Positions 894 through 42,900 of a DNA stretch of 64,000 nt are shown here, piece by piece. The notes under the pieces are model-generated. The model was not told where the DNA came from. It worked only from the letters and a program-made list of their open reading frames with translations, and ran no database searches. Source of the stretch: Antedon bifida (taxonomy: Eukaryota; Echinodermata; Crinoidea; Comatulida; Antedonidae); contig OY727097.1 of NCBI GenBank assembly GCA_963402885.1, forward strand, positions 992,001 to 1,056,000. Reading direction: 5' to 3'. Within the stretch, counting starts at the first letter, position 1. Every line of letters begins with the position of its first letter. Made by a program: the position numbers and the translations under genes.

Positions 894-3800
894 TAAATAA
901 AATATCTGGAACCAGAGATACAATCCAGGCTCGACCGGACTGGCAGGTAAACAAAATGAAACTACTTAGCTCAGAGTTGACTAGTATAATATTAATAGTT
1001 ATTATTTCTCCCACTGACGCAGACTTTTGTGAATTATCTACTAGTGATCATTTTGTATATAGATAGGCCTGTTATATGCCATAGTGTGATACGTGCAGAC
1101 CCCTATGATGGATGTGCATTTTGACATATGTTGACAAATATTAATTCAGGTTTCTAAACGATACAAACGTAAAGATATAATGTGTCCCCTGAAATTTATT
1201 TCTTTTTTTAAAATATGCCATTTAGAAATGGTATTCAGAGAAGAGTCCGGAAGAATTTTCAAACCGTAATACTACGTCTATTAGTTCGGTTTAATAATAA
1301 AAAATAATTTAGCTCGTTTCTCAGCAAATAATTCGATCGACGTAAAATGACCTCCCACTCCGTTTTCGTCGAATACACCATCCCCTTCCTTTTCAGCGTT
1401 GTTTGGTTTAGCTGGTGCTTCGCCATCATTATAATCTCCATTGATGTAAGACCTTGAGACTGGTGTGTTTCACCAACGTCGCTGGTGCTATAATAACGAT
1501 CGTGTCGTTTATAGGCCTATATCTTTATATTCGTTGCCAATCATCTCTCTTACATTTATCCATCAACTACAAGGCGTTGATTGGTTAAAAACGTTGTAAG
1601 TAATCAGCCAATTGGAAATCGTTAAATAATGCTATAGATATAATTATTTTCTTGATTTCAGTAAATCGAGTTTATAGACAGGAAGGTAGCAGAACAGAAT
1701 GCGCAACATATTGTTTAGTCTTTTTCTCTCTTTCAATGCAAGTACTATTATTTATCAAAGCTCAAATAGACAAGGATGAGATCATTATTTAGCGATTGTA
1801 AATGGTCACATTCTAAAACCTCTATAGATTATTAGAAATGATTCTACTTTAAAACCCATAGTTGTTCGGCACCAATTGCTATCACGTACCGAAGTAAACC
1901 TTCAATAAAGTAAGCCCTATTATTTCATTTCATTGTTTTGCTTTCTTACAGGTTGTTGTCATTGTTGAATCATCTTCCTATGGAAATTGCCCGGCTGACC
2001 CGACTGAAATAGGATGTTCTGATGGTATATTATTTTATTATAATGATTAAGGGTCTGTCATACCTGTTCCGGTAGGGTTCCGGTCCAGCGCCGGCAAATC
2101 TAATCTCACGTCAATGTGTTTCGTTGCTCCACGCGGCTATGCGCCAATCGATATGCGCGTAGCACATTGGCGTCCGAATAGATTTTCCGGCGCCGAACCG
2201 GAACCGTGCCTGAGCAGGACGTGTGAAAGACGCTTTACAGAAGGGTCCTAATTAATGAGTATAAACATTATATTTATGGTGCAAAATTATTTTTAAAAGA
2301 AACCAAAATCTAAACTAATAATCAGTGTTACGATATTACTTTTAGAAACATTTTCAATTATCAATTTTGTTTGTTTTATCAGATAAATGGATTCTGACTG
2401 ATCACTACATTGTACCTGGAACCGTTAACGTGTTAACTCACAGAAACTACCCTGATAAGTACCGGAACTGCGAATTTAGAGGATGGAATGTAACTACTGC
2501 ACCAGGCTATGTAATGACCGTTGCTTTCGAGATAGTTGACTACGAATTGGGTAGAGATTTCTTGTATTTTGTTTACGGGGATTCTGGTACCAATATAAAG
2601 GATGTATCTAGTCGAAATGTTGAAGTACTACTTGATCTACAGTATATGTATTTTGAGTCCTGGCAACTCTACATGTGTACAGATGGATATAATAGGAAAT
2701 ATGGATTTCTAACCTATATAACACCTCAGCTTTGTAAGTTACCAGAATCTGTTACATTATTTGCAAAAAAATTAGATAGATAGATAGATATGAATCATAC
2801 CACACGTCCATTTTGAAATGTGTCTAAAGCTCTGTCTACACTATCAAAATTTATGTGACAACAAAATGTGATGTGCCCATATATGGACATGATGTCGTCA
2901 TATCACTACCGTATTTGGACATATCACTACCATGTCTAGGCACATCACATTTTCAACTAGGTTGATAGTGTAGACAGAGCTTACGAAAATGGTATATATC
3001 TTACACAACCAGTACCGTTTTGCAAATCGTTAGCAGTACAATTATCGTAAACGATAAGAATAATCGGTTCGATTTCATTCGTAATTTTGTTGACTAAATT
3101 TCGGGTCTTTTCCGCAGCTTCATATTAAAATTCCGCAGCTCTGTATTATAGTTCCGCCGCTCTATAGTTCCGCCGCTCTATAGTTCCGCCGCTCTATAGT
3201 TCCGCAGCTCTATAGTTCCGCCGCTCTATAGTTCCGCCGCTCTATAGTTCCGCCGCTTCAATATATTAATACAAGTATTGGCAATAAGCAGAATGTATTG
3301 TTTCCACCTCACGCATTTTTAACACTAAGAATTGTATTAGGACTAAATACTCTATTAATCATTCTAGCTTCAACAAGCGATATTAACCTACTAACCACAG
3401 AAGAAGAAGAAAGTACCACCACTAGTACAGGTTGGTTTTATCAATTACATTACATTGGTGAATAACTATAATGATTTATTTATGATGACATTTGGAGAAA
3501 ATAAATATTGAAATGAATTTGTCCTGTTACGCAAAATCCAATCAATTTGTTTTAGAAAGTAATATAGCTACAGCAATTACTAGTTTTATTGGAGCATTCG
3601 ACACCGGAACTTTACATCCAATCACCAACCCTACTACAACGTCACCGTCTGATGCAACGTCATCGTTGAGTGCAACATCATCGTTTGATGCAACGTTATC
3701 GTTGGGTGCAACGTCATCGTTTGATGCAACGTCATCGTGGGATTCAACGTCATCGTCTGATACAACGTCATATGCAACGTTATCGTCGGATTCAACGTCA

Positions 3801-6800
3801 TCGTTTGATGCAACGTCATCGTTTGATGCAACGTCATCGTTTGATGCAACGTTATCGTTTGGTGCAACGTCATTGTTGGGTGTAACGTCATCGTCGGATT
3901 CAACGTCATCGTTTGGTGCAACGTCATATGCAACGTCATCATCGGATTCGATGTCATCGTTTGGTGCAACGTCATCATCTGACTCAACGTCATCGTTGGG
4001 TGCAACTTCATACTCAATTACAACTACATCGTTGCCGAAATGGCTTAGTTCCACGTCGGCTTCTGTTAGCATTTCTTATCAGGTATAGAATTAATATTTT
4101 ACTCCAGATTATAATGCATGGCAAGGCAAACTTCATATTACTTTATTTAACCAAAGTCCGTCATACTAATTTGCATTTTATTTCTATAATATTGTTCTAA
4201 TTACCATGGACCTAGATCCACGCTATATTTCGTTATGTACGCCTGGTCGACTATTATATTGTCTTAAAATGAAAGAATCTTAATTATTTGGTGTAGTTAA
4301 TTGTTTCCACAGATCGAGCAACTTTTGGATTACTCAGAATCACGTGACTCTTTGAGTGAATCGGAGGCTATGCGTATCCTACAGTCCACTAAGAATATTA
4401 CGTCAGACGATAGCAACTATTTGGACGTAAATGACATATTGAATGTAATCAGACTGTTAGAGGTTGTTGCCGATTCAGCAACGTCATCACAATCATCTGT
4501 TGAGGTATAAAGCGTGGTTCCCACTAGAGACGCAACGCAAGGACGTACGCGCAACGCAAGCAAGTTGACCAATGACAAGCCACTGTTCGAATAATCTATC
4601 GCTTGTGATTAGTCAAATCACTTACGTTGCGTTACGTCCTTGCGTTGCGTCGCTAGTGAGAACAAGCTTAAGAGGGAACTTGTTTTTATGATTGATTGAT
4701 TGTTTACACGTTATGTAATTATGATGTGCCATGAGGAGGGGAGACAGTGACGGACTTATTTGAGTCTCTATGTAGTCCCTTGACCGAATGATAACTTTGT
4801 TGTTTCTTTTTTGTATACATGTTGATTTTGTTCGAAATAATAATGATGAAAAATTCTTTTACTGACAGTTGTACCTGTCGGTGTATGATGACATATTACA
4901 GGAATGTAACATGGATAAACTCGCATCATCAAATGAAAGTGAGGTAAGTATACATGTATCTAGTGAATCTTGAAGCAGCAGCAGTAGTAACGGATTATGC
5001 CGACATTTGTTTTGTCTGTTTGTAAGTTCTCTAGACTGGCCTGTTGAATGTGCAAGGTTTAGAGCACAAACTATCAGTGCCATCCATCAAATCTCTGTCT
5101 ACACTATCAAACTAGTTTGAAAAAAAAAATGTGATGTGCCCAAATATGGTGGTGATATGCTTAAATATGGTAGTGATATGAAATTATCATGTTCATGTGG
5201 ACACATCACATTTTTTTGTCAAATAAAGTTTGATAATGTAGACAGAGCTTTACTGTATAATGAATAAACTTTAGATCCTAGCTTGTCTATTTTCCATTAC
5301 TTTTATAGGGTGTTGCTAGTGACATCATGTCAATGCTAGATACATACACGGCCGCCGTTTCTGCTAACTTGGTCTTCGCAAACGAATCGTCGGTCCTCAG
5401 TTATGCAAATGAGAACATTGGTGAGGAAAATAAATATTTGTATTAAGCAGAATAATATAATTATCGACAGAACATTCTTTCATTTATTCATATCTAATTT
5501 CGCAGTCGTGGAGATGGAATCTGTTCCAAGCAGTGACGTCACTCTGTTGGTTGATAGAATAGAGATCTATGCTAGTGAGGATTCATTCCACGTCAGCTTA
5601 CCCATGGTCAACTTGAAGGGCAAGTCAGGTAAGTGGCTCACACAGGACGTACGCGCAACGCCAGTAATTTGACCAATCACAAGTGATGGTTTGGATCATC
5701 TGTCGCTTATGATTGCATTGTGCACACCGTTCTTGCGTTGCGTCAAAACGACGGCAACGAAAAAAACGAGAATAAGGATAAGTGATAAAATAAGGGCAAT
5801 TTAAAAATGACACGGTTTAGTAATAATAATATTTCTCCAAATGTTTCAGTGAAAGTAATCACAATCGTCTATAAGACTTTGCATGTGATGTTGCCAACCG
5901 TACTTGAGGGAGACCAAAGTGGACACTCCACAAGGATAGGATCATTTACAGTATCAATTACTGTAACGGCAAATGACGTAGTGTTCAACCATTTTGATGG
6001 CAATGATCCACTTTACATAACTATTGATCACGTGGTTGTAAGTACCAATTAAAATCATTTGAAACCAAATTTTCGTTTATAGTGAAGGACAAAACTACGT
6101 TAAACTTACCCAACGTTTCATGCGTTCTCATCGCACTTTTTCAAGGTAGTGATGTCAGCTTGATTTGCCGACACTGATCATGGCATAGTCACGTGGTGTT
6201 GGATAAGTTCAACGTAAATTTGTCCTTCACTATAAACGAAAATTTGGTTTCAAATAATATTGTTGAAAGGAGATGAATTTTTTCAATTTTAATCATGTTA
6301 AGCTTGATTCCCACTAGGACGCGACGCAAGAAGGACGTAGACAGCACATATCGACCAAAATGCCGTTAGAACCGTCTTGTGTGGGAACCGTCGACGTAAT
6401 CACGGTGTCGTAGACGTATTTCAATACCGAATTCTTTTTTTCTAGTGGGAACCAAGCTTTTTGCACAGATTAACTAATTAAATACAAGAGGAAAGAAAAT
6501 ATATAATTAAGTTAAGACGTAGATATAACGATCATACAACACATGAATATTTAAAAGTGTTTTTATATTTCAGCAATTAAAAGAAAATGAAGAGTCGGTG
6601 TGTTCATTTTGGAAGTTTACTGACGATAAGTAAGTTGTTTAGTCTGTAATGTTCTATTTAGATAATTATTTATACTGTCCAAATATGATAGGAGGAAACA
6701 TTAATTTTTTTTAAATGTTGTGAAATTGAAACTACGTAATTATTGTAATTTGTGTAGTATTGATGGTGGTGTATGGTCAGAGGACGGGTGTTTAGTTTCT

Positions 6801-9800
6801 TCATCAACATCAAACCAATCTGTCTTTAGCTGTGATCATTTGACAAATTTTGCAATACTTATGAAAGTTCCAGGCCCGTTTCAGGTTAGAATAGTGCTTT
6901 GACCTTTGACCTTTGCTTTGACCTTTGTAAAGGCGCTGAAGAAATGAAAATGTTACTGTTAAAACATAATAATATATGCTAAAACATCATTATACTATCT
7001 TTAAAATGTAACCTTCGTTTAGGTAACCAAATAAATTAAAATCAAATAAAACTTGCTGCTCGTTTCAAACAATCCTTTTGTTTTTCCTTCGCCAGCATTT
7101 CTTGAGATTAGTTGACAAAAGGCAAAGGAAGGTGTATTTCAATAATTAATTGGTTATTTATTTTATTCACCATTGCAGCTGATTTTGTTGTGGTCCTTAA
7201 TAAACCAAGACAACAAACAACGAAAAAGAAGCATAATGTAAAACTAATAATATATAGAAAGATGTACAATTAAAACGTTATAAAAGCAATTTTTTAAACA
7301 AAGTCTTTCACTTTATCCTTTAGGTGATTTCAAAAGGAGATACATTTGCATTAGATGTTCTAACATACTTCTTAACGGTTCTCTCAATCGTCTGTCTCGT
7401 TTTGACTGTTTGCACGTACATTTGGCTTCGGTAAGTTTTTATATTTTATTTTAGGCTTACTTGATTTGTTCTTCTCGGTGGCCTATATCTAAAGCCTGTT
7501 TTCCAACATGCGAATTTGTTCGCGCGGGCGAATCCAACGTTTCGCAGAGAAAAACAAATCGCGCTACCCTTTCCACTACAAGAGCAAATAGCTGTTAATT
7601 TCGCTGAAGAAGCGAAAACCTCAAGGAACTAGAACTCGTCGCAGAGGCCTTTGGAAGATGAAAACAACTGCTCTCTTGCCGCACCCGCCGCGTCCCATTT
7701 TGCCTTAAAGTATAGAATCTAAATGATTTATTTTCTTCGTTTTACGTTTTACTTTTTTAATCCTAAAGAGCATGGCACCTAAGAAGAAACATCATCCACA
7801 TAAACTTAGCCATATCTCTTGCATTGGCTCAATTACTGTACATAGGCTTTGTCAATGCCACTGCTAATAAGGTAACAATATATGATACTCATAATGTATA
7901 GGTATATCGTTCCAATGTCAAAAGAAATTATCAAAGTAGGAGGATTGTATTGTTAACTCTAAGCGTATTGCATTATCTGATTATAATCCGAATAGACTAT
8001 AATGTATTTTATAACCGTATTTTGTAGATACATCACTTTGTATAATGCCTTACAATTAATATCGTACAATACTCTGATTTTGTCACGTTATTTAATCAAT
8101 ATCTGCCCTTGAAGGGTATTACTTAAAAGCTTCAACACTTTGAAAATCATATTTTTGCATTATATGACCTTCGTTGTAATAGACCTATTTAAAATGCAAT
8201 GCTGTTACAACTGTCTGTGCTTTTCAGAGCGTTAATTGGTTGATTGTGTCGTGACGTAATTAGCTACACGATCACACGTAAAAGGGGAGGCCAATTTATA
8301 ATATTTTCAATGGTGATGTCTGCGCCTTCCAAAATTTTAAAGTAAAATAATAATAACATTTAAATTATCCAAAATATAACGTCTCCTGAGTTACAAAAAT
8401 AATTCAATGTTGCACTTTTTTAGCATGTGTGCACGTTGGTGGCCGTTCTTCTGCAATACATGTTTACCGTCAGTTTTAACTGGATGTTATTAGAGGCCGT
8501 TCATCTTTTGATGATGTCCAACATTAACCTTCATCAAAAGAACCCGAAAAGTTATGTTTACGTTATATCCGGTTGGGGTAAGTTCAACTTTCTCTGGGGA
8601 TACTTAGATGTACCAGATAGGTTAATTAAATCTACCTCACTTTTGTTCGAACATTTGTTTCTATTTTCAGTGCCACCTCTTGGAATTGTGCTGATCTCAT
8701 TTTCATCTAAACCATCGGGTTATGGAACTCAACAATTGTAAGTCTCAATTTTACAGTATTTGTCTACAGTATGAAACTTTATGTGACAAAAAATGTGATG
8801 TTCCCATGGACATGATGATGACATATCACTACCATGTTTGGGCACAATTTGTCAAACTAGTTTGATAGTGTAGACAGAACTTAACGTCATAAAATGTTAA
8901 ATCCTGATCGTCTTTTTCCTCCGTAGTTGTTGGCTTGACACATCAACGCCTATTATTTGGGCATTTGTCGTACCGATCCTCGTGGTGATTGCTGTAAGTA
9001 CAAGTTATTGATTGAGCACAGTGATGACGTTGTAGCTGACGCGTAACAATAAATGACGTGGTAGTTGGCGCGTAGTAATACAAATGACGTGGTAGTTGGC
9101 GCTTGGTAACACAAATGACATTGTAGTTGGCGCTTGGTAACACAAATGGCGTGGTAGTTGGCGCGTAGTAACACAAATGACATTATAGTTGGCGCGTAGT
9201 AACACAAATTACGTGGTAGTTGGCGCGTAGTAACACAAATGACGTGGTAGTTGGCGCGTAGTAACACAAATGACGTGGTAGTTGGCGCGTAGTAACACAA
9301 ATGACATGGTAGTTGGCGCGTAGTAACACAAATGACGTGGTAGTTGGCGCGTAGTAACACAAATGACGTGGTAGTTGGCGCGTAGTAACAAAATGACATG
9401 GTAGTTGGCGCGTGGTAACACAAATGACGTAGTAATTGTGCGTAAGGTGATGGCAATGACGCAGTTTTTTCCAAGTAAAAGGCAAAATACCCATCCAATA
9501 ATTTTCCTTGCAGGGGAACACGTTTATTCTGCTCGCAGTTATCAGACGATTTATAAATTTAAAAGTAAATGCAACTAAAAGGAAGAAAGAACGAATGAGG
9601 TAAGACAAGAAAATTGTTATTTTAGTTGTAGTAGGGGTATGACGTAAAAACAAATGTAGGTACACGTTTACTGCTGTTTCGATGTGGAGATGTTCATCTG
9701 TTCAAATGATGATGTAATGAATGTGAGAACTATAAGCTGGCTACTTTCCATTTTATTCATATTTGTACAGAACCAGTATTCGTGCAGTGTTGTTGATGCT

Positions 9801-11795: not shown

Positions 11796-14700
11796 TTACA
11801 ACGGTAATTCAAACTGAACGTCTACAGCGGCTTCTTTTGCTAACTCAACAATTGCTGACAACTTGACGACCTACACAAAACATAATAACAAGATCAATTT
11901 ATTCACAAACAGAAATTATTATAAACATGACATACACTATGTTTAGCCATCTGGAGAGGCCAAATAAGCCTCAAAGAGATTTGAGACTGGTTCCGCCACA
12001 GAGAAAAAGAAAGTCTGAAGTTTAGATTGAGCTTTATAGACAGAAACATACAGGAGTTAAAGACAATAGATATAATACACAGAGATAAAGTACACAATAC
12101 ATACAATATTACAATTTGTATGCAGTATTATTCTAAATAACATTGTTTTAAATTGTTTAACACGCCTAACCAAGTTTCTCTTCAATTAAGTTTATCCTCA
12201 TGGTTGATCTTCTCTGTGCCTTCGACAACCATGAGTGGTTTCTTTTACTAAAGCTCTGTCTACACACTAAACTTTATGTGACAAAACAAATGTGATGTGC
12301 CCATATATGGATATGATGATGTCATGTCACTACCATATTTAAGCATAGCACTACCAAATTTGGGCACATCACACTTTTTTTTGTCAAACTAGTGTTGATA
12401 GTGTAGACAGAGCTTGATTCAAGTGCAAGATGTCTAGGCCTTATGTAACTCACCATTTTAGCTGCCTCATCAAGATCATTACAGGCAATAATTCTCATAT
12501 CACTTGCTGCTATTAGTGCTTTAGCATCTTCAACCTGTGTTCCTATATAAATACAATAAACACACTTAAAAGTAGCACCGAACAAAAGTATTAGCTAGCG
12601 CCAAACAGAATGGCTTTCAAGAAGATACATAGACCCCAACAGCAGGCTAAGGGAAATTTATCCCATCTATGTAATTACAGTACCACAAGGGAAATTCTTA
12701 AATATTATATTGATTTCAGTATATCATCTTCTAAATGATATCTCGTTTAGTATTCAAATTGTGTTTTTTTTTTTAAATGTTCTATTGGTTTATTAAATGT
12801 TACCAAATCAAGATAGTGTTATATTAATGAATAATTAAGTAAATGACTTACTTACCTTGTAACCTACATACAATTGGTATTTTAAGACTAAGATCACTGG
12901 CAGCTGCTATGATACCTTGAGCAATCACATCACATCGCATAATGCCACCAAATATGTTAACCAATATTGCATTCACCTTCAAAAGAAACTCATTTAATAA
13001 ATATGGTAGTTCTATAACATTATCATGTCCATATAAGGGCACATCACATTTTTTTTCACATAAAATTTGATAGTGAACATGCAAACAAGGCAAGCTGTAC
13101 ATGAGAACATATTCTAGCTCATCATTTTGTTTTTTACAAGGTATTTTGGCTAACAATAAATATAGTCATGGTGATAGATCGTGCCTTACATTTGGATCTG
13201 ATGTGATGAGTTTAAAAGCCTCTTTTACTTGGTCTTTAGTTGCACCTCCTCCAACATCTAAGAAGTTAGCCGGTGAACCTTTGTTAAGTTTTATAATATC
13301 CATAGTAGACATAGCCAAACCAGCACCATTCACTGAAAATAGGCAGTTCATACTTAGTTAGGCAGATGTTGAGGAGTTTAGTCTATTAACCAGGGGAGGA
13401 ATTATTTTAAGTTTTAGCTTGCATCCATCCATTCATCTTTTTATTTCTGAATACTATGATCACATAATAAACCCATAGCAAATCTTAAAGCTTAATTTAA
13501 GAAATCATTGTTCAGATAAAAAAAAAAAAAGTTGAAATTGTACAATATTACAGAAAAAATGTATATAGTAAAAACAAGAAGGCATTCCGCTGTATATGCA
13601 TTTTGAACACAATATAAATGAGACATTTTAGCCGACACTTACCTAGACAACCTATTGTTCCATCAAGTTGAATATAGTTCAGATTTGATTTTGATGCTTC
13701 TACTTCACGTGGGTCTTCTTGAGTGTTGTCTCTCAATTTATGAATATCTTTTTGTCTGTATGACGCATTGTCATCAAAGTTGATTTTACAGTCCATGCAT
13801 ATAACTGAAAAAAAAAAAACATTTTTCAATTTATAATCAAATTAGATCATATCAGAAAAGAGATCATACATTCATACTATACAGAAACAATGCTTAGTAA
13901 AACAAATATGGGAATCTTGTGGTCAGTGGGACCAATTGTAATTATTTTATAATATGTACAGTAGTAATTCAATTGAAACCTACCTTTGCCTGTATTATCC
14001 TCGGCAAGTGGGTTAATCTCCAACATTGTTGCATCATATTTTATGAGAAGATTATACAGCTTAATAAAGGTATCAGCAGCCTGCAAACAAATCAGGTGTT
14101 ATTTCACAATCCCAAAATACAATTTCATAGCAGTGTAAAGCTCTGTTCACACTATCAAACTAGTTTGACAAACAAAGTGTGATGTGCCCAAATATGATAG
14201 TGATATACCCAAATATAGTAGTGATATGATATCATCATGTCCATGGGCACAATTTTTAATAAAGTATGATAGTGTAAACAGAGCTTTTTAGTATGTTTTA
14301 AGTATTTTATCAATTGTAAGAAAAGTTTTAGAACAACTGCTGAATTTCAGTCCAATAATAACATTTATACATTACAACAACATACTTACATCTTCAATAC
14401 ATGCTCCTGAAAAACCTATTCTTTTTGCTACATCTATTGCTACTTCTTTTGATAAACCTAGGAATAATACAAGAATGCCAAGTGTTACATTCTACCTTAC
14501 AATTCCATTGGAATGACTCTAATCTCAAATCATTTACTAAATCAGCAGAATTCAGAGAGGGATGAAAACATAGCTTAATATCTGATTGAATGCATTAGTA
14601 AATAGATGTAACAGCCTACCTTCATTGATATCAATTCCTTGTTTAACAATAGAATCTGGACTTTCTTGAGCTATTTCTTCAATATTAACTCCTCCCTCTG

Positions 14701-17700
14701 AACTTGCAATAATTACGGGACCCTGCAATATCAATAGATATACTAACATGTTAACACAATTTTTATTTTTTTTTTATTTTTATTACAGTTACAGCTAGAA
14801 TATTAAATGCAGATTCACATTTATTAGAAAATAGAAGATCTTGAAAACATATTTATAAATAGATAGGAATAATGTTCTGTAATAATATGTATGAATGTAG
14901 TCTGTATACAATCAAACATAGGAACTCAACATTTACAACTCAAACTTACCATATATGACATACCTAATGTTAATAGGTGTGAATGTAGTCTTAGTTTGTA
15001 CATACTTACCATATATGACCTATCTAATGTTAGTAGGTGTGAATGTAGTCTTAGTTTGTACATACTTACCATATATGACATACCTAATGTTAATAGGTGT
15101 GAATGTAGTCTTAGTTTGTACATACTTACCATATATGACATACCTAATGTTAGTAGGTGTGAATGTAGTCTTAGTTTGTACATACTTACCATATATGACC
15201 TATCTAATGTTAGTAGGTGTGAATGTAGTCTTAGTTTGTACATACTTACCATATATGACATACCTAATGTTAGTAGGTGTGAATGTAGTCTTAGTTTGTA
15301 CATACCTACCATATATGACATACCTAATGTTAGTAGGTGTGAATGTAGTCTTAGTTTGTACATACTTACCATATATGACCTATCTAATGTTAATAGGTGT
15401 GAATGTAGTCTTAGTTTGTACATACTTACCATATATGACCTATCTAATGTTAGTAGGTGTGAATGTAGTCTTAGTTTGTACATACTTACCATATATGACC
15501 TATCTAATGTTAGTAGGTGTGAATGTAGTCTTAGTTTGTACATACTTACCATATATGACATACCTAATGTTAATAGGTGTGAATGTAGTCTTAGTTTGTA
15601 CATACTTACCATATATGACATACCTAATGTTAGTAGGTGTGAATGTAGTCTTAGTTTGTACATACTTACCATATATGACCTATCTAATGTTAGTAGGTGT
15701 GAATGTAGTCTTAGTTTGTACATACTTACCATATATGACATACCTAATGTTAGTAGGTGTGAATGTAGTCTTAGTTTGTACATACCTACCATATATGACA
15801 TACCTAATGTTAGTAGGTGTGAATGTAGTCTTAGTTTGTACATACTTACCATATATGACCTATCTAATGTTAATAGGTGTGAATGTAGTCTTAGTTTGTA
15901 CATACTTACCATATATGACCTATCTAATGTTAGTAGGTGTGAATGTAGTCTTAGTTTGTACATACTTACCATATATGACCTATCTAATGTTAGTAGGTGT
16001 GAATGTAGTCTTAGTTTGTACATACTTACCATATATGACCTATCTAATGTTAGTAGGTGTGAATGTAGTCTTAGTTTGTACATACTTACCATATATGACC
16101 TATCTAATGTTAGTAGGTGTGAATGTAGTCTTAGTTTGTACATACTTACCATATATGACCTATCTAATGTTAGTAGGTGTGAATGTAGTCTTAGTTTGTA
16201 CATACTTACCATATATGACCTATCTAATGTTATTGCAAAGTAATATTCACGTCTTGAATACATTCGTTCACACACTAAAACCTGAAATAACAAATAAACT
16301 CATATTAGCTAGTATCACTGTAGATGAATTATTTAGATACAGAAATTATACAGAGATTTACTACTTATTAAGCTTTTTAATAACTTACAGAATTACATGG
16401 TCTGCCAATAGCTCCGGTTTGCTTTGTTATTAACTTGTTTCCAATCATCTGAGATGCTAATTCACGTACTTCTGTTGGTCTACACAAAGATTATTTAATA
16501 ATAATATTTAACAATAACATCTTCAAAATATTTCTTAAAACTTTATTACAGTTGGGAAATATAAATCCCTATTGGAGTTAATTTTGTATTTCCAGAAATA
16601 CAAAATGATTCATTGTTGTAGTATTGATTAATAAAATGTTGTATAGGTATTATGATCAAAAACACATACGAGAAAGCCAATTTAACACCTCCTTTAAGAC
16701 CACTCTCAAAGTAACCTTTGCCCCTTCCACCAGCCAGTACTTGTGCTTTGACCACTACATCATTCCCTCCTGTCAAAAATATTTTTAAAAATGTATACAT
16801 AAAGTAGCAGGTATCTTAAATAATGTTACAGTTATATATTTATACATTATCATTTATACCTATGCCCCTCCTTAAGATCTGTCTAACACTATCAAACTAG
16901 TTTGCAAAAAAAGTGTGATAAAGTTTGATAGACCTTTAGTAGAGTATCTCTGAAATTGAACATTTATCTTTATCAACATGATTTTGAGACCAAACATCGC
17001 AAACCTTCTTACCAAGATCTGATGCTGCTTGAAATGCCTCATCTGGTGTCATAGCAACTTTTGCCCCAGGAATTGAGACACCTGCTTCTTGCAGTAGATT
17101 GAAACTTAGGTACTCATGAAGAGATAAATGTCTACGTTGTTGTTGTCCACACAGAAACCCATTACCAATGGCTGCAGCGACCTAAACCCAAGCAAAATAT
17201 ACAAACGATATAAATTAAATTTCAATTGAATGATTACTCAACAAGAATATGTTTGGTCTATCCCTAGTCTGCTTTCTAATATTATTATTAAAATTAATTT
17301 TAAATAATTGCACTTTTTTTTGTTATTAATATATAATAATAATAATAATTAATATTATTTAATATAATAAATAAATTATTATAATTAAATAAAAATATAA
17401 AATAGATATAGGCCAATTTGTGCACTCTCGTATCATCACTATTTCAATAAATAGAATTTGAGTCTACCTAATACTGGCTGGTTGTTGCGGGTCCAATGTG
17501 CACTTTCTTATGTCATATGACAGGCTAGGCCTAGGCCTCCCGGCCTCCCTACACACTTTCTACTTCTCGCGACCGGGCCGAATCCCGTTGTCAGCGAGCT
17601 ACGATTTGCGGTCATATTAATTTAGGCTAGTAGGACTAGGCCTAGACACAATTTTCACTAAATTTTGTAAAAATAAAATGCAAAAACATTTCCAAAATAA

Positions 17701-17800
17701 TCCTATAACCAGTAAACCATAATCCTACCTTTGTATGATGCTGTAATCCTTGTTTTGCAGCAATCAATCTGCTCCCGAGTCGACATATTGAAGAAGCCAT
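11796..17800 (-). CDS. SUCLA2: succinyl-CoA synthetase, ADP-forming, beta subunit, mitochondrial
   Basis: TCA-cycle enzyme of the mitochondrial matrix: succinyl-CoA + ADP + Pi to succinate + ATP, as a dimer with SUCLG1. Exons (5' to 3'): 17800-17729, 17181-17013, 16769-16670, 16479-16389, 16281-16210, 14722-14620, 14457-14390, 14080-13984, 13804-13643, 13332-13190, 12976-12856, 12542-12454, 11870-11796; 1362 nt, 453 residues, close to human SUCLA2 at about 463. All phases agree. The N-terminus ([16 protein letters not shown]) looks like a mitochondrial presequence. Family hallmarks: [39 protein letters not shown] (ATP-grasp), [22 protein letters not shown] (metal site), [25 protein letters not shown] (CoA-ligase domain). 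It matches SUCLA2 better than the GTP-specific SUCLG2. Exon 5 ends in a 22-copy array that repeats its own splice donor. Minor change: Asn-Ser precedes VLVCER where human has Asn-Gln. Confidence 0.97.
12250..12416. mobile_element. palindromic MITE, family A copy 6
   Basis: Left agctctgtctacacac, right gatagtgtagacagagctt; last intron of SUCLA2. Confidence 0.88.
12998..13078. mobile_element. family A MITE remnant
   Basis: Only the half with catgtccatataagggcac and cataaaatttgatagtg remains; SUCLA2 intron. Confidence 0.6.
14136..14287. mobile_element. palindromic MITE, family A copy 8
   Basis: Left agctctgttcacactatc, right gatagtgtaaacagagctt; SUCLA2 intron. Confidence 0.88.
14944..16233. 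repeat. 60-bp minisatellite, 22 copies, containing SUCLA2 exon 5 end and its 5' splice site
   Basis: Period exactly 60 bp. On the minus strand each unit holds the last 21 exon bases (ending TCATATATG) and the donor GTAAGTATG plus 30 more intron bases. All 22 copies keep a canonical GT: 20 read GTAAGT and two (near 15301 and 15781) read GTAGGT. Unit variants: LDRSYM type versus LGMSYM type at the exon part, plus an a/g change. The unit is a multiple of three and stop-free in the SUCLA2 frame and in others, which explains the very long open frames on both strands here. Confidence 0.97.
15061..16020. repeat. 480-bp higher-order duplication inside the 60-bp array
   Basis: The order of unit variants in 15061-15540 (eight units) recurs identically in 15541-16020, including the rare cctacc unit at the fifth place. 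Three or more identical units follow. This indicates a recent segmental duplication of eight units. Confidence 0.9.
16875..16938. mobile_element. family A MITE, internally deleted
   Basis: Left agatctgtctaacactatc followed almost directly by aaagtttgatagacctt; the core is missing. SUCLA2 intron. Confidence 0.65.
17270..17410. repeat. AT-only low-complexity stretch in SUCLA2 intron 1
   Basis: Runs of attatt, taataa and aaataaa with almost no G or C; no coding or structural signal. Confidence 0.7.
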
Positions 17801-18926
17801 TTTGAATGTTAAGAATGTTTTATCCTGATTCTATAACTTTTACAATTTTAACAGTTTATTTCAGCTAATAAAAAAAGATAATACTGTAGCTATATAAAAA
17901 TAAATCTATTAACATTTTCAAGTTTAATGAGTTGTGTAATCAATATTAGAAATACAATTCAGAACAATAAATAATTTATAATTTTAAAGCTAGTTTAAAC
18001 TTTCAACTCTATGTTTATTTCCGGTCGCCAATTACAAATTCCAGGTACCGAAATTAATTGTCTTCGACTTCTTTTTGTCATGTAAATAAGCAGATTTCAT
18101 CGGTATTCTTAGTTGTATGAGGTAGATAGGTATTCTATTAAAAACTATGAATTTTAAGATTTAAAAAATAATGTGTCTGTGAAATTTGGGCCTATTTTTA
18201 GGTTGAGGCCCACGTTGACAATTTTGTTGTTGACTGTCACATCAGCTCTCAGCTCAGACATTCTCTGTAGACTGTCAAAAATGATGAATTGATGTAGGCC
18301 TAGGCCTAGTAGGCTAGACCAGCAGGGGAGGGCTAATATATTTAGGCCTACTTGTAGCCAGGAAGACAATAGTCGACCTATTGGTTTTGAAAATATGAAA
18401 ATTATAAATACTGATATGATTTATGAAAATTAAATAAAAATAAATTTCATTTTAATGATTTTTAAATAATTCAATCCATTACACTACAGTTACAGTATTA
18501 GTAAGTATTATAGGCTATATTAAGGCCTCTTCCTATATATTTATCATGCCATGGCAATACTCATTCATTGGGTTCATTTTTTTTAAATTTTCATCTTTTT
18601 AAAAATTTCCAATGCCTTGCCATGGCCCATGTTCTTTATAAATAGGCTCATTCTGTTGATATGAAATCCAGTTACTGAGAATGTTCTTATACTGTATTGG
18701 CAATATGTAAATATAATAATACTAATTTCTCTAATGATTATTTAATTTATTGATTATTTATGATGCTTTTCTATTGTTTCCTTTTAAGGAAGTGTACTTG
18801 TTATCTACCATTGTAAACATATTGTTGAATCAGTATTGTAATACAAACACATTTTTTTTTTTCAGATGATTGCCAGAAATTGGTTTTAATCTTGTGTTTT
18901 TCAATCATGAGGTAGAAACAAAAACC
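17801..18926. promoter_or_regulatory. divergent SUCLA2 / PPP2R3A intergenic region
   Basis: The two genes start back to back about 1.1 kb apart. At 18017-18026 atttccggtc reads GACCGGAAAT on the minus strand, an ETS/GABP-like core, beside a CCAAT at 18028-18032. Both fit a housekeeping promoter for SUCLA2. The SUCLA2 start is in AAAATGGCTTC, similar to a YY1 site. The PPP2R3A 5' UTR exon was not located: an acceptor (tttttttttcag) ends at 18864, so an upstream exon exists here or an alternative longer first exon is used. Confidence 0.5.
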
Positions 18927-21900
18927 ATGGGAAAATTAAAACCACATCTACGTCTAAAAATCGATGAACTATTTCTAAGGTGGTTGAGTGAAACAGACAC
19001 GCAAGAAATCTTGCGTGAAAACTTATCACTCATCAAAAAGGGAGAAAACATAGACTACACTCCGTCGTCAGCATTCCAGTATAAAAGCCATGGTAGCCCT
19101 GCATCACCCTTGCTCAGGGTCTCATCACCAACAACTCCTCCTTGTTCACCAATTCCAAACAGTACTCCAAGTCCTCGAAGCCCTCGGAGACGAAGCACTA
19201 ACAAACTGTCAACATCATTATCCAAGTCACTGACTGCTAAGGTAAACTACACATTGTATTACTATTAATTCTAGTACAGTAATAGCCTAACATGATGTTG
19301 AAACTAATACTTATTTTATGTATTTGAAAAATAATTGTACTGTTTACATCCAATCTTGTGATCTCCACTAAGATTACTAGCTGCATTATGGGAGTATGTT
19401 TCCATATGTGATGCAAAAATGACCGGGGTAATAGTGTTCAGACGCGCTTAGACTGAGGTTTCACAACATTAGGCGCTATATAAATCCAGGATATTATTAT
19501 TATTAATAAGACAAAATAAAATGAGTTCACCATAGAAAATATTAAAACAGTAGTTTTTGACTTTTAAGTGTTATAATTTTAAATTGGATAGCAGGAAATT
19601 ATAGCAGAAGAATTGTAACCCCTAACATAATGATAGAACAATCCAAAATGTTTGACCAATCATCAGACAGTATTCAATGACTTCATTCAGTACAACTAAT
19701 GTAATACTAATATAGTAATAGCTCATTTTATTTAATCATATTTAAATACACAGGAATTTATATTAATTATTACTTCAACCATTGATAGTTTATTTGCCAC
19801 TATAGATGTTGCATATTCTGGTATTCTGGTAAAGTACAAAAAAACAATGGAATTCTCTAAGCTTCTTAATTAAGCTTAAGTTAACTTAAGCATCTAATGA
19901 TTGTTGAGTTACTTGCATTCGTTGATATAAATAAGATATTAAGTTTCGTGCTAAGTGCTAAGATTAAACTTGCTTCATCTTTTCAGGCTTGACCCTAAAG
20001 AGTTTGATATTGCTCTTTAATTGGTATGATAGGAATTTTACTAGCTTGCAGGCATGTTCTAATCTAGCTCAAATTCCTCAGGCAGCGGTCTTACTTTAAA
20101 ACAGTTTATATTTATCACCTGCCACAATATTAAACACATAAACAACGAGTAAATCATTTATTATAAAAGATGTTCTGTTTATGCTTTCTGTTTAAATAAA
20201 AGATATTTTACATTTTTAGGATTTCAAGAGAAGTGATATTTGATAATGTAATCCCATGCTCCATACCCTACAAATTTAATTAATGCTAAATTTTGACTCA
20301 AAATCCATTAATAATGCAATCTGAGTATAATCCCACCACTTAATTATTTTCTCTAAATTTGATACTCAGGTCTCCCTCTGGTCCCCCTACTTGATCATAT
20401 GGAATTTTTTTTTTCTTTTCAATAGATTATTTTTAATAAACTAAATAGAACAATTGTTTGCAGTTACTGGAAAAAACAGTCACTGCAACAGTTTGTTTGT
20501 TCTCACATAAATAGTTAAATAAACTTTCAAATATGTTGTTTCCTGTTTCTATGGAGACAACTTTCAATTACAGTATTTGTCATGTGACCCAAAAAGTTGA
20601 TTGAAGTCAAAGTGATTAACATTCTTACTTATTTACCCCATACTGTACTGCCCTGATTTACGAAAGGGCATTATCTCAATTTTTTTCAAAATTGAGATTT
20701 TTGTCTTACATGACTTTTGAGGGTATAATCTATCATTTAAACTTAACAGCTACTAAAAATGTTTTCTATAAATATTAAAAATATTTAAAAAATTAAAATC
20801 AGCTTGGGCATTATCTTTATTCATACCTACAAAAAATAAAAGCATTATCTTAAAAAAACAATACACAACAGGAAATGATCGCTTGACTGCACACTGAAGC
20901 AGTAACAATTATCCAATCAGAGGTTGACTTTATGCATGCTAATTACCACGCTCAAACTATGTTTGTAGATGTTAACTAAAATAAATTGAATCTTTTAATC
21001 AAAATATTGTATTTGACAACACTAACATAAATTTATGTGGATACCAAACTAAAATGGAAAAACATGACTACAAAGAACATTTTCAAGTGCCTATTGAATG
21101 AGTAAGCCTAAGTTTATTACTTTTTATTACTTATGTCTTCGTTATTATCCTTGAAAATGTTGAAAATGTAAAAAAAAGTCCAATGGTCATTTGTAGTGTT
21201 TTCCAATTGATATTTAAATCAATGTCAAGCAACTTTTGTTATAAAACAATGGCATTGGGAAATTTGTATTTTAGTCTTTTGAATTACATTTTGATTGAAT
21301 AGAGCTTTTTGGGTGTGGCTGTAAGCAAGCGTAGTCATTACATTGAATTCCATTTAAAGAAGTACTATTTTAAAAAGTTGAAACAAAATTAAACCGGAAA
21401 TGTGAATATATGGATACCAGTTATATGTCTAGAGAGTTTTTAAAGAAAAACAGGAATTCCACAAATTAAAAAAGACAACATAATAAAGAAATTGATTCCA
21501 CAAACAGAAAACTTTTGGAAAAATCGACCAACTTCAAACGTACGCAATCTGTTAGAAAACGAATAAATATATCAAATACAAAACTTGTAAATATAATGCA
21601 TAAAGCAATAATCTGTATCAAGAGAGAAAATGCGATAAAATCACTGTACATCGAGTTTTTATAAATGGTTTTTTTATTTTTTTGTCATCAAATTTCATGA
21701 AATCCTTCCAAAGCGAGTACCACAATCCCGCCCCCCTAAACCCATCCCCACCCCAACAAACACCCTCCCCACCCCTCGCCCAACGGCCACATGTTACTCA
21801 CTCTCCTTAACTTTAACCTATCCCTAATGCAACATATTTGTCTTGTGCTATTAGATGTTTTGTAGTGTACATTCTATGTAAATATAGAGATAATGCCTTT

Positions 21901-24900: not shown

Positions 24901-27900
24901 GTTGATCTGTCATTGTATTTTTTGCTAGTAGTAAAACCTTAAATTTATAACCAGTGTGTCTTTGTTTACCTAATTTGAATATGGACATATCTAAAGCTCT
25001 GTCTACACTATCAAATTGTATGTCACAAAAAAATGTGCTGTGCCCAAATATGGTAGTGATATACCCAAATACGGTAGTGATATGACATCATCATGTCTAT
25101 ATATGTGCACATCACATTTTTTTGTCACATAAAGTTTGATAGTGTAGACAGAGCTTAAGATTTGAGTTTGCTAGAAACCCTTTAAATAAACAATAGGAAG
25201 GGATTTGTTAGATATGTACAAATAAGGAGTGAAATTGCCTAAGCTCAGTCTACAAATCCATACAGCTTAATTCATTTCCTGACAGACACTGTTTTAACTC
25301 TGAGACACACATGGCACCTATTCACTAAATCCCAACACAATCGGCGTCATCTGTTGTGATTTTAGACATTTAAAAAAAACTTTGATATAAATTTTTTCTG
25401 GGGTTTGAATGTGGCAAAAGTTAATTTGCTAATGCTCTGTATACTGTATTTGTACTAATGAGTAAATTGTATTGTATTGAATTAGTAATGTTTATTACAT
25501 GAAAGAAAAGGCTAACAATTAGATTAAATGCATATCTAATTAATATTTCTCATATATATCACACAACATAACCTGCAATTAAACTATAATTAGTTGTGCG
25601 AGTTCAAAGTGAGCCAAAAATTCTCAAATATTATTATTTATTTTAATCATTGGATATGAATATTCTCATTCATCCAGTTAGTACTAAGTCCAGTGGATAG
25701 ATTAGATTGATATCTTTCAAAACAAAATCTCATCTCATCTATTTTTTTTTAGCTTTTTGAAGATCGTAAAGCAGCTGAGAGTAACCGGCAACCAGTAAAC
25801 GTTCCACAGTTTTACTTTCCGTATGGCCGACCGGTTGACGCAGGGGTAAATGAAAAGGTTTTAGAAAAAGTTTCAGAGGTTTTTAGATCTTTACAAGTTA
25901 TTAGAAAACATGAAATGGATGAGCTAACATTGGTATGTTTATTTAATAATAATTTTTTTTTTTTTTCACAAACTCGACAATTACAGGATGGATAAACTAT
26001 TTTTACAATTATCATGCTTATAAACTAAGTCTCATTTGAGGCTTAGGGAGTGGAGTTGAAAGAGTTGTGAATTACAACCCTGGCACTAGGTCAGGATTGA
26101 ACCCCGGACCTTGGAATGCAAGCAGATTAACCACAAAGCTACAGTTCCACTACAATTATGCCAAATTCTAAAATTTTAGACAGTGGATTTTGTGGATACA
26201 TGCATTCGGTCTGCTCCATTGTTTTGAAATATGTTTTGTTGCATCGTGCAAATAAAAAATATACAAATACTGAATGCTGTTTTCAAGATTTTATCACCAA
26301 AGTCATTGACCTCATATTTACTACAACAGTATTATTCATTGCAGGCTTGTGGCTGTCCTAAATATTGGAGGATGGCTCTCTTTCACGCAGCTGGAGGAAA
26401 AGATGATGTACCCCTTACAGAAGAAATGTTTGTAACAATGTGGCAGAGGTTTGTAATACATCCTCTTTATTTCATTATTTATTTCAACCAATTTTAGATT
26501 CTTTCCATTGCATAGTTAAACACAATTTTAAAAACTTTAATTGTCAAAAAAAAAAAAAAAATTATCAATCAACATCATCTTATTTCTGCACTTAAAAGTG
26601 TACCTCCAATTGACATTCTTAGGATCTGAACCATCTTTATTAAGTCTGAACTTATATTTCTTTTTCTCACTTGTGCATTTAATATTTGACCTCCACTTGA
26701 CCTTATCAGTATCTGAGCTATCTATTTATTTCCTTTGAGTCTGAATTTAAAATTAATAATTATTTTTTTATTTCTCTTACAGAGTGATTTCTGAATGCCA
26801 TGACGACAGTTCAAGATTATTTCGCCTTTTAGTGAAACCCAAGTGCAATTACATATCAGCTGAGGACTGGTACCCAATGATTCAGGTAAAGAACACCCCT
26901 TGATACCAGTCTCAATTACATATCAGCTGAGGACTGGTACCCAATGATTCAGGTAAAGAACACCCCTTGATACCAGTCTCAATTACATATCAGCTGAGGA
27001 CTGGTACCCAATGATTCAGGTAAAGAACACCCCTTGATACCAGTCTCAATTACATATCAGCTGAGGACTGGTACCCAATGATTCAGGTAAAGAACACCCC
27101 TTGATACCAGTCTCAATTACATATCAGCTGAGGACTGGTACCCAATGATTCAAGTAAAGAACACCCCTTGATACCAGTCTCAATTACATATCAGCTGAGG
27201 ACTGGTACCCAATGATTCAGGTAAAGAACACCCCTTGATACCAGTCTTAATTACATATCAGCTGAGGACTGGTACCCAATGATTCAGGTAAAGAACACCC
27301 CTTGATACCAGTCTCATTACATATCAGCTGAGGACTGGTACCCAATGATTCAGGTAAAGAACACCCTTGATACCAGTCTCAATTACATATCAGCTGAGGA
27401 CTGGTACCCAATGATTCAGGTAAAGAACACCCTTGATACCAGTCTCATTACATATCAGCTGAGGACTGGTACCCAATGATTCAGGTAAAGAACACCCTTG
27501 ATACCAGTCTCAATTACATATCAGCTGAGGACTGGTACCCAATCATTCAGGTAAATATTTAAGAACACCCCTTGATACCGGTCTCATTTCATCACCCCAC
27601 CAATAAAGGATTCCTTCCACCAGTTTGTTTGAACCGAACTTTGACCAAAGTTGTTTTAGTGGTCTGGGAGGGAGACATCATAATTTGTGTCACAGAGGTC
27701 TGAATGTGGTTTTAGTTTAAATGTCATTTAATGTCACTTAAGTGACCAATGTAAATTAATTATCATTGTCATCGTTTATTTCTTTTTCGTAAACTTAAAA
27801 GAATCAATAGTACATAAGTGTAGAATAATTAAATTACTACTGTATATCCTCTGGTGTAATCCCACCTTCTCATCCTCTTTCCTAACATAAAATTATATCA

Positions 27901-39900: not shown

Positions 39901-42900
39901 TCATTAAATATTAAATTAATGTTAGTGCATATCAAATATTTCTAGAATTGAACTGATGATTTTAATTTGATGATTTCATAACGTTTATAATAGAACCATA
40001 TCAGAGGTGAATCCTTTCTTTCTCATATTTATACTGTACTTACTTGTTCATGTATAAAACTAAATTGACTACTGTATATGAATTATAGTCAAAAAAAGAA
40101 AAAAAAAGCCTACAATTGTAGATTACCGAGATTACTTAATTCATATATTTCCTTTGACTCCACTATTAATATTTTCTGTAATTGTTTATATTTATTTAAA
40201 TCCCAAATTAAGAATTGTTTGTAATTGATTCTTGTAGACCTTGTCAATGTTTTTTGTCTTTTTATATATTCCAGTCTGTAAGTGGCGAGCTCTCCGCTGT
40301 TGATTGCAAATTGAAATAAAATAAAATAAAAAAATTACTGTATTTAATAGCAGCAATAGGATTTGAGGGATTGATCTGAACTAGTCCAATGTTTTGATCT
40401 ATTGACTCAATAGGCTTCACCACATAATCCCCTTACACAGCATCCTAGTGTATGTGGATCAACTATAACCTAATGCTATAATATTATCCTAAATCCAATA
40501 AAGGCCATGTTTAAACAAATTATTTGTTTAGTGTTCTCCAGAAACAGCCCAACATGATTATTTTTTTAGTTTTTTCATACATTAATTTAGTTGGTACAAA
40601 CAACATGTTAATGTGTTATAGTAGTTTTTACACTATAGTTTTATTTTAAAATATTGTGTAAAAGTTTGTGAATAGATTGGCTTAAGTTAACATGTGTACT
40701 TACTTCACAGTAAGTCCTTGACTTGTTTTAACAGACGCAAGTAAAACAGAAACTTTCAGATTTGCAATTATTAAATATCTTGAATGTTTCTATCATGATG
40801 TATTCATTGTAGAACGTTTTTAAGATATTAATTACAGTATATTTTAAAAAATAAATGGCAGTAAAAATTCATAAAGCAGCCAAAGTCTAAAGTTCTGTCT
40901 ATACTATCAAACTTTATGTGACATAAAAATGTGATGTGCTCATATACGGACATGATGATGTCATATCACTACCATATTTAAGCATATCACTACCATATTT
41001 GGGCACATCACACTTTTTTTTAACATGTTTTCATACACTCATATTATCTGAACCTTGTGAAAAGCATAGTTGCGTGCTGCTATTTGATTACTATGATTGG
41101 TCAGTTTGATACTAGAGCAATACATGCATGTACTGTAACATCTCAAAACATTCATACAAAAGTTTAGGTATTAAATAAAGACAGTATTCTTCAAAAAACA
41201 TGCAAGTACATGCATAAAGCAGCCAAACTCTAAGACATTCTGCATAGAATTTACTCAACTTTTGCAAATTTCAACAACATTTTTCACTGAGAATATATAT
41301 TTTCCTTTATTACCTTTTGCTTCTTTTTCTCTATAGAGAAATAAAAATAAATTTTTTATTTCTTTACCTTAGGTTATAGCAAGAATTATTTATGTTGTTA
41401 ACCGATCTTGGACGGGAAAGATAACATTACCAGAGTTCCGTCGTTCTAACATTTTGTCTGTGAGTATAATCAACATAAATGTTTACACTTGCCTTAAGGT
41501 GTCTGTCCTCTGGTAAAAGCTATATATAGCGGTAGTTTCACACGCTGATGATATTGTTGTGTTTGCTGGACCGTATGTGGATGCTGTATGCAGATGGTTA
41601 AGACATAATGCTCACACTTTTGAATGACAACTTTCTGACCATTTGAAAACTATTGCGACTTTTCTCATCTTTATTGTTTCAATTTTATTAATTAATGAAA
41701 TATCTCAATTTCAGTTTAGTATACCACCGAGCGGTTTAGAATTAATATTCTGTGTATTGTGTTTATATATTTATATAATATACTGTAAATATAATTTATA
41801 TGTTTCTGAACTGTAGTTGATGAAACAATACCTGGCCTTTAGACGACCTCATTGTCAAAATCATCTCTCACTTAATTTAAAATTACCCAATAACTATACC
41901 CTAATGTATTTCATACTAAAAATACACATTTTGAATGCATGATGAGTTGACCCGGTCATGTTTAGCTTACTACCAAAACTAAATATTGAGCAAGCAAGTA
42001 ATTAAGTATGAAAAGATTATCAAGATTGATTAGCCAAAACAAAGGAACAGTTTTTGATATATTTAGTATTCGGCCAAAGCTGAATTATTCAAATGGTTTT
42101 GCTACAACTTTTATAGTCAGTATAATTTTAAGTTATCTGAAGTTTGTGCTTTTAAATTGCATGTGTTCTCTGAGAAAAATATAAATATGAATACTGTATC
42201 TGTATTAAATATATAAAATTTATATGTGGTATGCAAATGATAAGCCCAGTTCTCCTATAACATTAATTTATTTTTGTTTTATTTTTTATTTATAAACCAA
42301 AAACAACAGCAGAAACAAATCCGCCACTTACAGCTTGGTTAATCCTTTTTTTTTTGTTGGGTTTTTTTTTTTCGATACTCTTTGAATTTAACTCCTATAT
42401 ATTATGACAAATATTTATTTTTTTATTTTTTTGGATAGGTACTACAATTACTTGAGGAAGAAGATGATATCAACCAAATCACAGATTTTTTTTCTTATGA
42501 ACATTTTTATGTAATTTATTGCAAATTTTGGGAGCTAGATTCCAATCATGATCTATTTATTGACAAGAAGGATTTGAGCAGACACAATGAACATGGTAAG
42601 TTAACACAATGAACAGGAAAGGTAACACAATGAACATGGTGGGTTAACACAATGAACATGCTAGGTTAACACAATGAACATGGTAGGTTAACACAATGAA
42701 CATGGCAGGTTAACACAATGAACATGGTAGGTAACACAATGAACATGGTAGGTTAACAACATGATGGATCATCCGTACTGTCGTCTGTGATTGCCCTTGC
42801 GCTTAGATCCTTGCATTGTGTCCTAGTGTGTACCAAGCTTAAGACAGCCATTTAGACGAAATTCTGATATAAACTTAAATATAAATGGTATATCAAAGAA

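Follow-up and report, generated by a model that had tools for sequence, protein, structure and literature searches.

Exon 5 of SUCLA2 (succinate-CoA ligase ADP-forming subunit beta) in the crinoid Antedon bifida ends at the first of 22 near-identical splice donors, supplied by a 60-bp minisatellite, and the locus thus raises the question of whether this housekeeping gene uses only that first donor or several of the copies. We addressed it with a stretch of 64,000 nucleotides that contains the gene (hereafter the window), together with searches of the 315.6-Mb genome. In our judgement the array is probably a young minisatellite seeded at the exon-intron junction, of which the first donor is used while the others stay mostly silent, whose reading frame is open by coincidence and which is one of at least 11 such arrays in this genome.

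The gene is complete. It lies on the reverse strand (11796..17800), and the gene model, with splicing at donor 1, joins 13 coding exons into a clean enzyme of 453 aa that carries both expected domains (ATP-grasp_2, Pfam E 2.6e-70; Ligase_CoA, E 1.3e-33) and aligns over its full length with animal SUCLA2. Its best match is SUCLA2 of Antedon mediterranea (P0001), with 451 of 453 residues identical (the changes being A to S and S to T). Exon 5 (16210..16281, reverse strand, 72 bp) ends with ...CATATATG at donor 1, the boundary reading ...GATAGGTCATATATG|GTAAGT, and exon 6 occupies 14620..14722 (reverse strand) behind an acceptor AG at 14724-14723. The exons of the gene are otherwise 68-169 bp long. 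Intron 4 has 107 bp and intron 5 has 1,487 bp, with introns other than intron 5 spanning 107-583 bp.

The minisatellite (14944..16232, reverse strand; 21.5 copies of 60 bp, 97% match and score 2403 in TRF) takes in 23 bp at the end of exon 5 and continues for 1.27 kb into intron 5. The unit table lists 22 copies of CATATATG|GTA at a spacing of exactly 60 bp, their first intronic bases running from 16209 down to 14949, and the donor word is ATG|GTAAGT in 20 of them and ATG|GTAGGT in the remaining two (units 8 and 16). According to the unit table and the donor scores, donor 1 (ATG|GTAAGT), which is the donor of the best gene model, lies at 16204..16209 and donors 2-22 (19 ATG|GTAAGT and two ATG|GTAGGT, in 60-bp steps) at 14944..16149, both on the reverse strand. 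The reading frame of SUCLA2 stays open across 21 full units and closes 7 codons past the last donor (VSLSCKC, stop). A first-pass annotation had named the gene, the end of exon 5, the 60-bp unit, the 22 near-identical donors and the open frame, and the gene model, TRF and the unit table bear it out on all of these. It had given the repeated part of the exon as 21 bases, which is in fact 23 bp (16232-16210), and had counted n x 20 extra residues for the nth donor, where the insertion would be (n-1) x 20 with a maximum of 420. Its series of 22 donors stands as an inventory, but it had missed nine further donors of the form TAG|GTATGT (14958..15803, reverse strand; units 8, 9, 11, 12, 16, 17, 19, 20 and 22), which brings the strong donors in the array to at least 31. 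In the scoring, 11 words of this second type are counted, but two of them are displaced words that arise from GTAGGT in units 8 and 16. ATG|GTAAGT scores 11.6 against 9.5 for TAG|GTATGT in a home-made matrix built from 17 donors (one from the stretch L007 described below and the other 16, including that of the array, from SUCLA2 and the gene next to it), and use of TAG|GTATGT would shift the frame (60n-14).

The order of the units records how the array changed. Their types read AAAAABACDAEDABACDAEDBF, with four variable positions among the 21 full units and F denoting a diverged last copy. The 8-unit block ABACDAED is present twice, which shows a past change of copy number, and the first units on the exon side are identical; together these features suggest slippage combined with unequal exchange. 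The intronic 39 bp of the unit have 21 matches in the window at up to 3 mismatches and none in 100 shuffles. A 120-bp piece of the array queried against the genome, in a search that skips very common words, gave nine matches, all inside the array (C10:1006971-1008232), so that no copy of the unit was found at another locus by this query, and comparison with phage records gave no match. It is conceivable that the copy number is an error of the assembly, the array having been collapsed or expanded, since near-identical 60-bp units are hard to assemble and the count comes from one assembly. The block structure with its interspersed variants speaks against this, as does the occurrence of the same anatomy, built from different units, at other loci; an artefact could alter the count but would hardly create a class, and we rate it as the remotest of the alternatives considered here.

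As for the origin of the array, a stretch at 14870..14903 (reverse strand, alignment score 31), downstream of the last unit, resembles the intronic part of the unit and ends with AACATTA, which is also found in the exon; we propose it as a remnant of the seed. This remnant, AGACTACATTCATACATATTATTACAGAACATTA, resembles the AGACTACATTCACACCTACT-AACATTA of the unit, and the exon has AACATTAG at the matching place. Its score was reached by one of 500 shuffles when the donor was part of the query and by none of 1000 when it was left out (the largest being 30). The simplest origin would be a tandem duplication across the junction of exon 5 and intron 5, probably between the exonic and intronic AACATT(A), after which the array would have grown by slippage and by duplication of the 8-unit block. 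Each unit might also be read as a mini-intron, since CTACTAACATTAG stands immediately upstream of the exon end in each copy. This was rejected: the branch-like and AG letters are about 7 nt apart, an intron of 46 nt would fall below the size of every other one in SUCLA2, and the piece of 14 nt would shift the frame.

Which donor is used can be approached from the layout of the gene. According to Carranza et al. 2022 (PMC9225289), exon-defined minigenes with two identical strong CAG/guaagu donors use the upstream one exclusively, and human pairs of donors of near-equal strength show a heightened preference for the upstream site where a short intron precedes the exon and a long one follows. Exon 5 of SUCLA2 has a short-then-long layout (107 then 1,487 bp), which would resemble that of the upstream-preferring pairs. 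If exon definition operates in A. bifida, exon 5 would be recognised across the exon, its first donor would be used, and the remaining 21 donors would be removed with the intron to leave the normal enzyme. Exclusive use of the first donor is thus the most likely course for SUCLA2 as far as sequence can tell, although later donors could still be used at a low or even a substantial level.

Several such donors in use would add between 1 and 21 blocks of 20 residues to a turn of the ATP-grasp region, as a ladder of isoforms. The donors are of equal strength and the frame is open through the array, as this reading needs, and the site could be a permissive one: in the AlphaFold2 model of P0001 (mean pLDDT 77.5; 10-residue means of 87-91 over residues 151 to 180), the junction M168|G169 is placed between predicted strands 156-164 and 169-175, where a small insert is conceivable. 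The peptide of exon 5, ended at donor 1 and joined to exon 6, aligns without gaps to PDB 6g4q chain B (human SUCLA2) and to 17 of 19 other aligned sequences. The two exceptions are the tunicate sequences P0097 and P0120, each with two additional residues at precisely this junction, for which reason an insert there is not obviously lethal. On the other hand, P0001 has no insert at the junction, although it comes from another assembly and its genome may lack the array. Furthermore, one search for the 20-residue repeat peptide among predicted and known proteins, limited to candidates of 0.55-1.75 times 457 aa that share 5-residue words, returned two word-sharing candidates and none at E<=0.001. 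The suggestion in the first-pass annotation that competing donors insert 20-residue blocks accordingly finds no support in these comparisons, nor in the arrays of other genes described below, nine of ten of which are unproductive beyond donor 1.

The open frame itself calls for a comparison with chance. Among same-size stretches taken from other SUCLA2 introns, 1,162 of 2,441 (0.48) were open in the given frame; with a length divisible by 3 (1/3), the chance of a compatible array is about 0.16, which makes the open frame weak evidence for use. Across all 11 homology-supported arrays, two, SUCLA2 included, are compatible in the sense of being in frame and open, and 1.75 are expected by chance, so that the open frame of SUCLA2 needs no selective explanation. 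Coincidence is the best explanation that the sequence offers. With openness expected by chance and parallel arrays breaking the frame, a functional ladder of isoforms is unlikely.

The same anatomy recurs twice in the neighbouring PP2A B''-like gene (forward strand), which was identified by tblastn with a human protein sequence and by a match to the Antedon protein P0121. SUCLA2 and this gene stand head to head with about 1.1 kb between them (17800-18936), and the promoter region is possibly common to both. One exon of the PP2A B''-like gene (26783..26885, forward strand, by gene match) ends with WYPMIQ | GTAAAG, the latter being donor 1 of array B, and P0121 continues with DVVNSHPGL. Array B (26846..27555, forward strand, TRF) consists of 10.7 copies of 67 bp in which the donor is copied, and translation continued past donor 1 reads VKNTP before it meets a stop; an intron remnant, GAACACCCCTTGATACCGGTCTCA, follows its last copy, similar to the case of SUCLA2. 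Another exon (42439..42595, forward strand, by gene match and P0121) ends with ...DLSRHNEH(G) | GTAAGTT at donor 1 of array C (42582..42758, forward strand, TRF; 8.1 copies of 22 bp), where read-through gives GKLTQ and a stop. In array C, GTAAGT is kept in the first copy and the GT is lost at the matching place in 3 of 7 later copies. Every later donor in both arrays lies beyond a stop, and P0121 reads as spliced at donor 1 in both (with SRHNEHALSTRII at one of them), with the reservation that its genome may lack the arrays.

To see boundary arrays beyond the window, we read four unselected 10-kb stretches of C1. One of them carries five copies of a 49-bp unit where an exon of the CP2 family ends (L007, 1522-1766; Pfam E 1.9e-6); this array falls within the first 40 kb of unselected sequence. 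Six other large arrays (in L006, L007, L009, two in L012 and one in L013), from these four stretches and four stretches beside the window, agree with a donor at no more than 6 of 9 letters, whereas 7 or 8 agree in SUCLA2, array B and the L007 array; they were judged by these letters. We then searched the genome for three GGTAAGT words at gaps of 38-68 bp. The pattern gave 391 rows against 575 for a reversed control word, these rows being overlapping matches rather than arrays, so distinct arrays were counted by eye, and at least 29 were found among the matches listed (to C10:1.13 Mb). Flanks were fetched for 27 arrays (28 stretches) and read together with those of DHX8 (L014) and SUCLA2; in L019, L030 and L044 the flank falls short of the array start. 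Of the 26 starts that could be read by eye, eight are at homology-supported exon ends, three at plausible ones (L031, L032 and L036, judged by appearance) and the other 15 beside nothing that reads convincingly as an exon. A search of Pfam with L031 and L032, which resemble exon ends, gave no match.

The supported ends are those of conserved exons. Matches among PDB sequences identify DHX8 (L014, E 1.1e-20), LRP2/4 (L017, E 9.5e-28), importin beta-1 (L021, E 3.2e-31) and a DEAH helicase (L042, E 2e-8), the LRP, importin and both helicase peptides having had no match in Pfam. Pfam identifies an EGF-domain exon (L027, E 1.4e-6), a PHO4 phosphate transporter (L035, E 2.2e-23) and a myotubularin-like phosphatase (L039, E 1.2e-4, below Pfam's cut-off). 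A second pattern, CAGGTAAGT three times at gaps of 5-35, had three matches against nine control rows; one is the DHX8 array, and the others were rejected as boundary arrays, L015 because by eye it looks like a coding repeat and L016 because no clear exon is present. With eight from the GGTAAGT pattern, the two arrays of the PP2A B''-like gene and the L007 array, the homology-supported boundary arrays number at least 11; their units range from 20 to 84 bp, and as many as 22 donors occur in one array. The genome probably holds many more.

In nine of the ten supported arrays other than SUCLA2, splicing at donor 2 would change the frame or come after a stop, and the later donors, too, are all preceded by a stop. 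These nine arrays can give an intact protein only through donor 1, whatever their unit. The tenth, at the EGF-domain exon, has an open unit of 63 bp, a length taken from the genome pattern since the fetched stretch is too short to include the second donor. This bears on the possibility that introns rather than exons are defined in A. bifida, in which case donor 22 or one of the last few would be used and the allele would yield either about 420 extra residues or no functional enzyme. Intron definition favours the donor nearest the acceptor according to PMC9225289, and the intron of 227 bp measured from the last donor would be ordinary for SUCLA2. The exon, however, would reach 1,332 nt, far above the others of the gene; applied to the other arrays, this rule would disrupt PP2A B'', importin-beta and DHX8, among others; and for a short intron before and a long one after the exon, that paper reports a preference for the upstream donor. 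We therefore consider this course very improbable. The preferred reading, with the first donor used throughout, also accounts for the survival of such arrays, because duplication downstream leaves the first donor in place.

Whether these arrays are attracted to donors or merely tolerated there is a separate matter. They might be selected or specially generated at 5' splice sites, either as U1-binding arrays that aid splicing or block early polyadenylation, or through a duplication hotspot. In keeping with this, three boundary arrays were seen in the window against a rough expectation of 0.2-0.5 (from eight large arrays and 40-100 assumed donors); leaving out SUCLA2, for which the window was chosen, the same test gives P 0.01-0.06. 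A mild bias to donors is thus possible, and the early appearance of the L007 array in unselected sequence points the same way. Genome-wide, by contrast, there is no excess of the donor word: C1, C7 and C8 hold 18 distinct GGTAAGT arrays against at least 33 of the reversed word, among the matches listed (the latter to C8:31.97 Mb), four of the 33 or more having one unit in common. The control word is itself odd, with 14 single occurrences against 20.5 expected and yet at least 33 arrays, which makes the comparison of array counts weak. By estimate, about 54% of the GGTAAGT words that occur singly are real donors, 24 having been seen where 11.1 were expected over 144 kb minus some 10 kb of masked sequence. 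The share of arrays at supported exon ends, 8 of 26, is below this (P 0.015), and when plausible ends are included, 11 of 26, it is not (P 0.165). A hotspot for duplication at donors is therefore unsupported by the word counts, weak as that comparison is; minisatellites seem to fall on donors no oftener than donor-like words occur, and neutral landing plus tolerance is taken as the default. Selection or special generation appears decidedly unlikely to us. For acceptors, TTTCAGG three times gave 313 rows against 24 for the control and eight distinct arrays on C1, C7 and C8, counted by eye among the matches listed. Few of the TTTCAGG words would be real acceptors, with 28 seen against 24.3 expected, too few for a comparison of acceptors with donors.

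Repeated splice donors supplied by a minisatellite are known from one human gene, IFI6, in which the repeat unit is shorter than 60 bp. The minisatellite of IFI6 (6-16, G1P3) was reportedly described by Turri, Cuin and Porter (1995, Nucleic Acids Res 23:1854). The SUCLA2 array resembles it in that a tandem array begins within an exon of a single gene and carries further copies of the 5' splice site of that exon, and by this anatomy the two belong together. The SUCLA2 array differs in its 60-bp unit with 23 bp of coding exon, in belonging to a housekeeping gene and in having further arrays in the same genome. Two downstream repeat units of IFI6 are said in PMC4526556 to act as donors, giving three mRNAs, which lends the isoform reading a precedent, whereas use of later donors in A. 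bifida SUCLA2 is probably rare. The minigenes of Carranza et al. are alike in placing identical strong donors with a GTAAGT core in series at one exon, and unlike in having two engineered sites in transfected cells where the crinoid SUCLA2 has 22 that are natural. Introns can also be gained when an exonic segment is duplicated in tandem, a process said in PMC4974935 to make a new intron and likewise involving tandem duplication of splice signals; in SUCLA2 the donor of an existing intron was multiplied and no new intron is needed.

In the literature searched, donor arrays were described neither as a class of their own in echinoderms nor as a common feature of any single genome. One human gene with a donor-repeating minisatellite was known, and here eleven homology-supported exon ends in one animal show the arrangement. 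They offer a natural replicate series for the choice of the spliceosome among identical 5' splice sites, they suggest that essential genes can tolerate duplication of a donor downstream, and gene-finders may misread such boundaries. A bolder reading would have crinoids carry hundreds of polymorphic donor arrays used at low real rates, the repeat number tuning the output or isoforms of core genes and SUCLA2 being a case in which slippage always keeps the frame and extends a tolerated hairpin loop; we hold it to be a long shot.

The window contains other repeats. At 50682-51667 (forward strand), 29 identical 34-bp repeats break into the open frame of a rhodopsin-type GPCR, which matches 7tm_1 on either side of them. 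This array is open in each of the three forward frames, and at 29 copies the halves of the receptor are in different frames; since 34 is not a multiple of 3, the copy number sets the frame, and this is possibly a phase-variable animal receptor or a copy-number error. A MITE-like dispersed repeat was recognised by eye at 2830-2980, 8800-8880, 12255-12440, 14175-14330 and other places, with inverted ends like AAGCTCTGTCTACACTATCAA and TTGATAGTGTAGACAGAGCTT around short CCCAAATATGGTAGTGATATG repeats of about 21 bp. At 9043-9438 (forward strand), an array of 12.8 copies of 31 bp begins about 50 bp past a likely donor, in what looks by eye like a small intron, and this donor lies outside the array. 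Two coding-type repeats have units that are multiples of 3, one of 72 bp (32411-33085, reverse strand), within an open frame of 473 aa that is rich in Ser and Glu, and one of 18 bp at 3637-4011.
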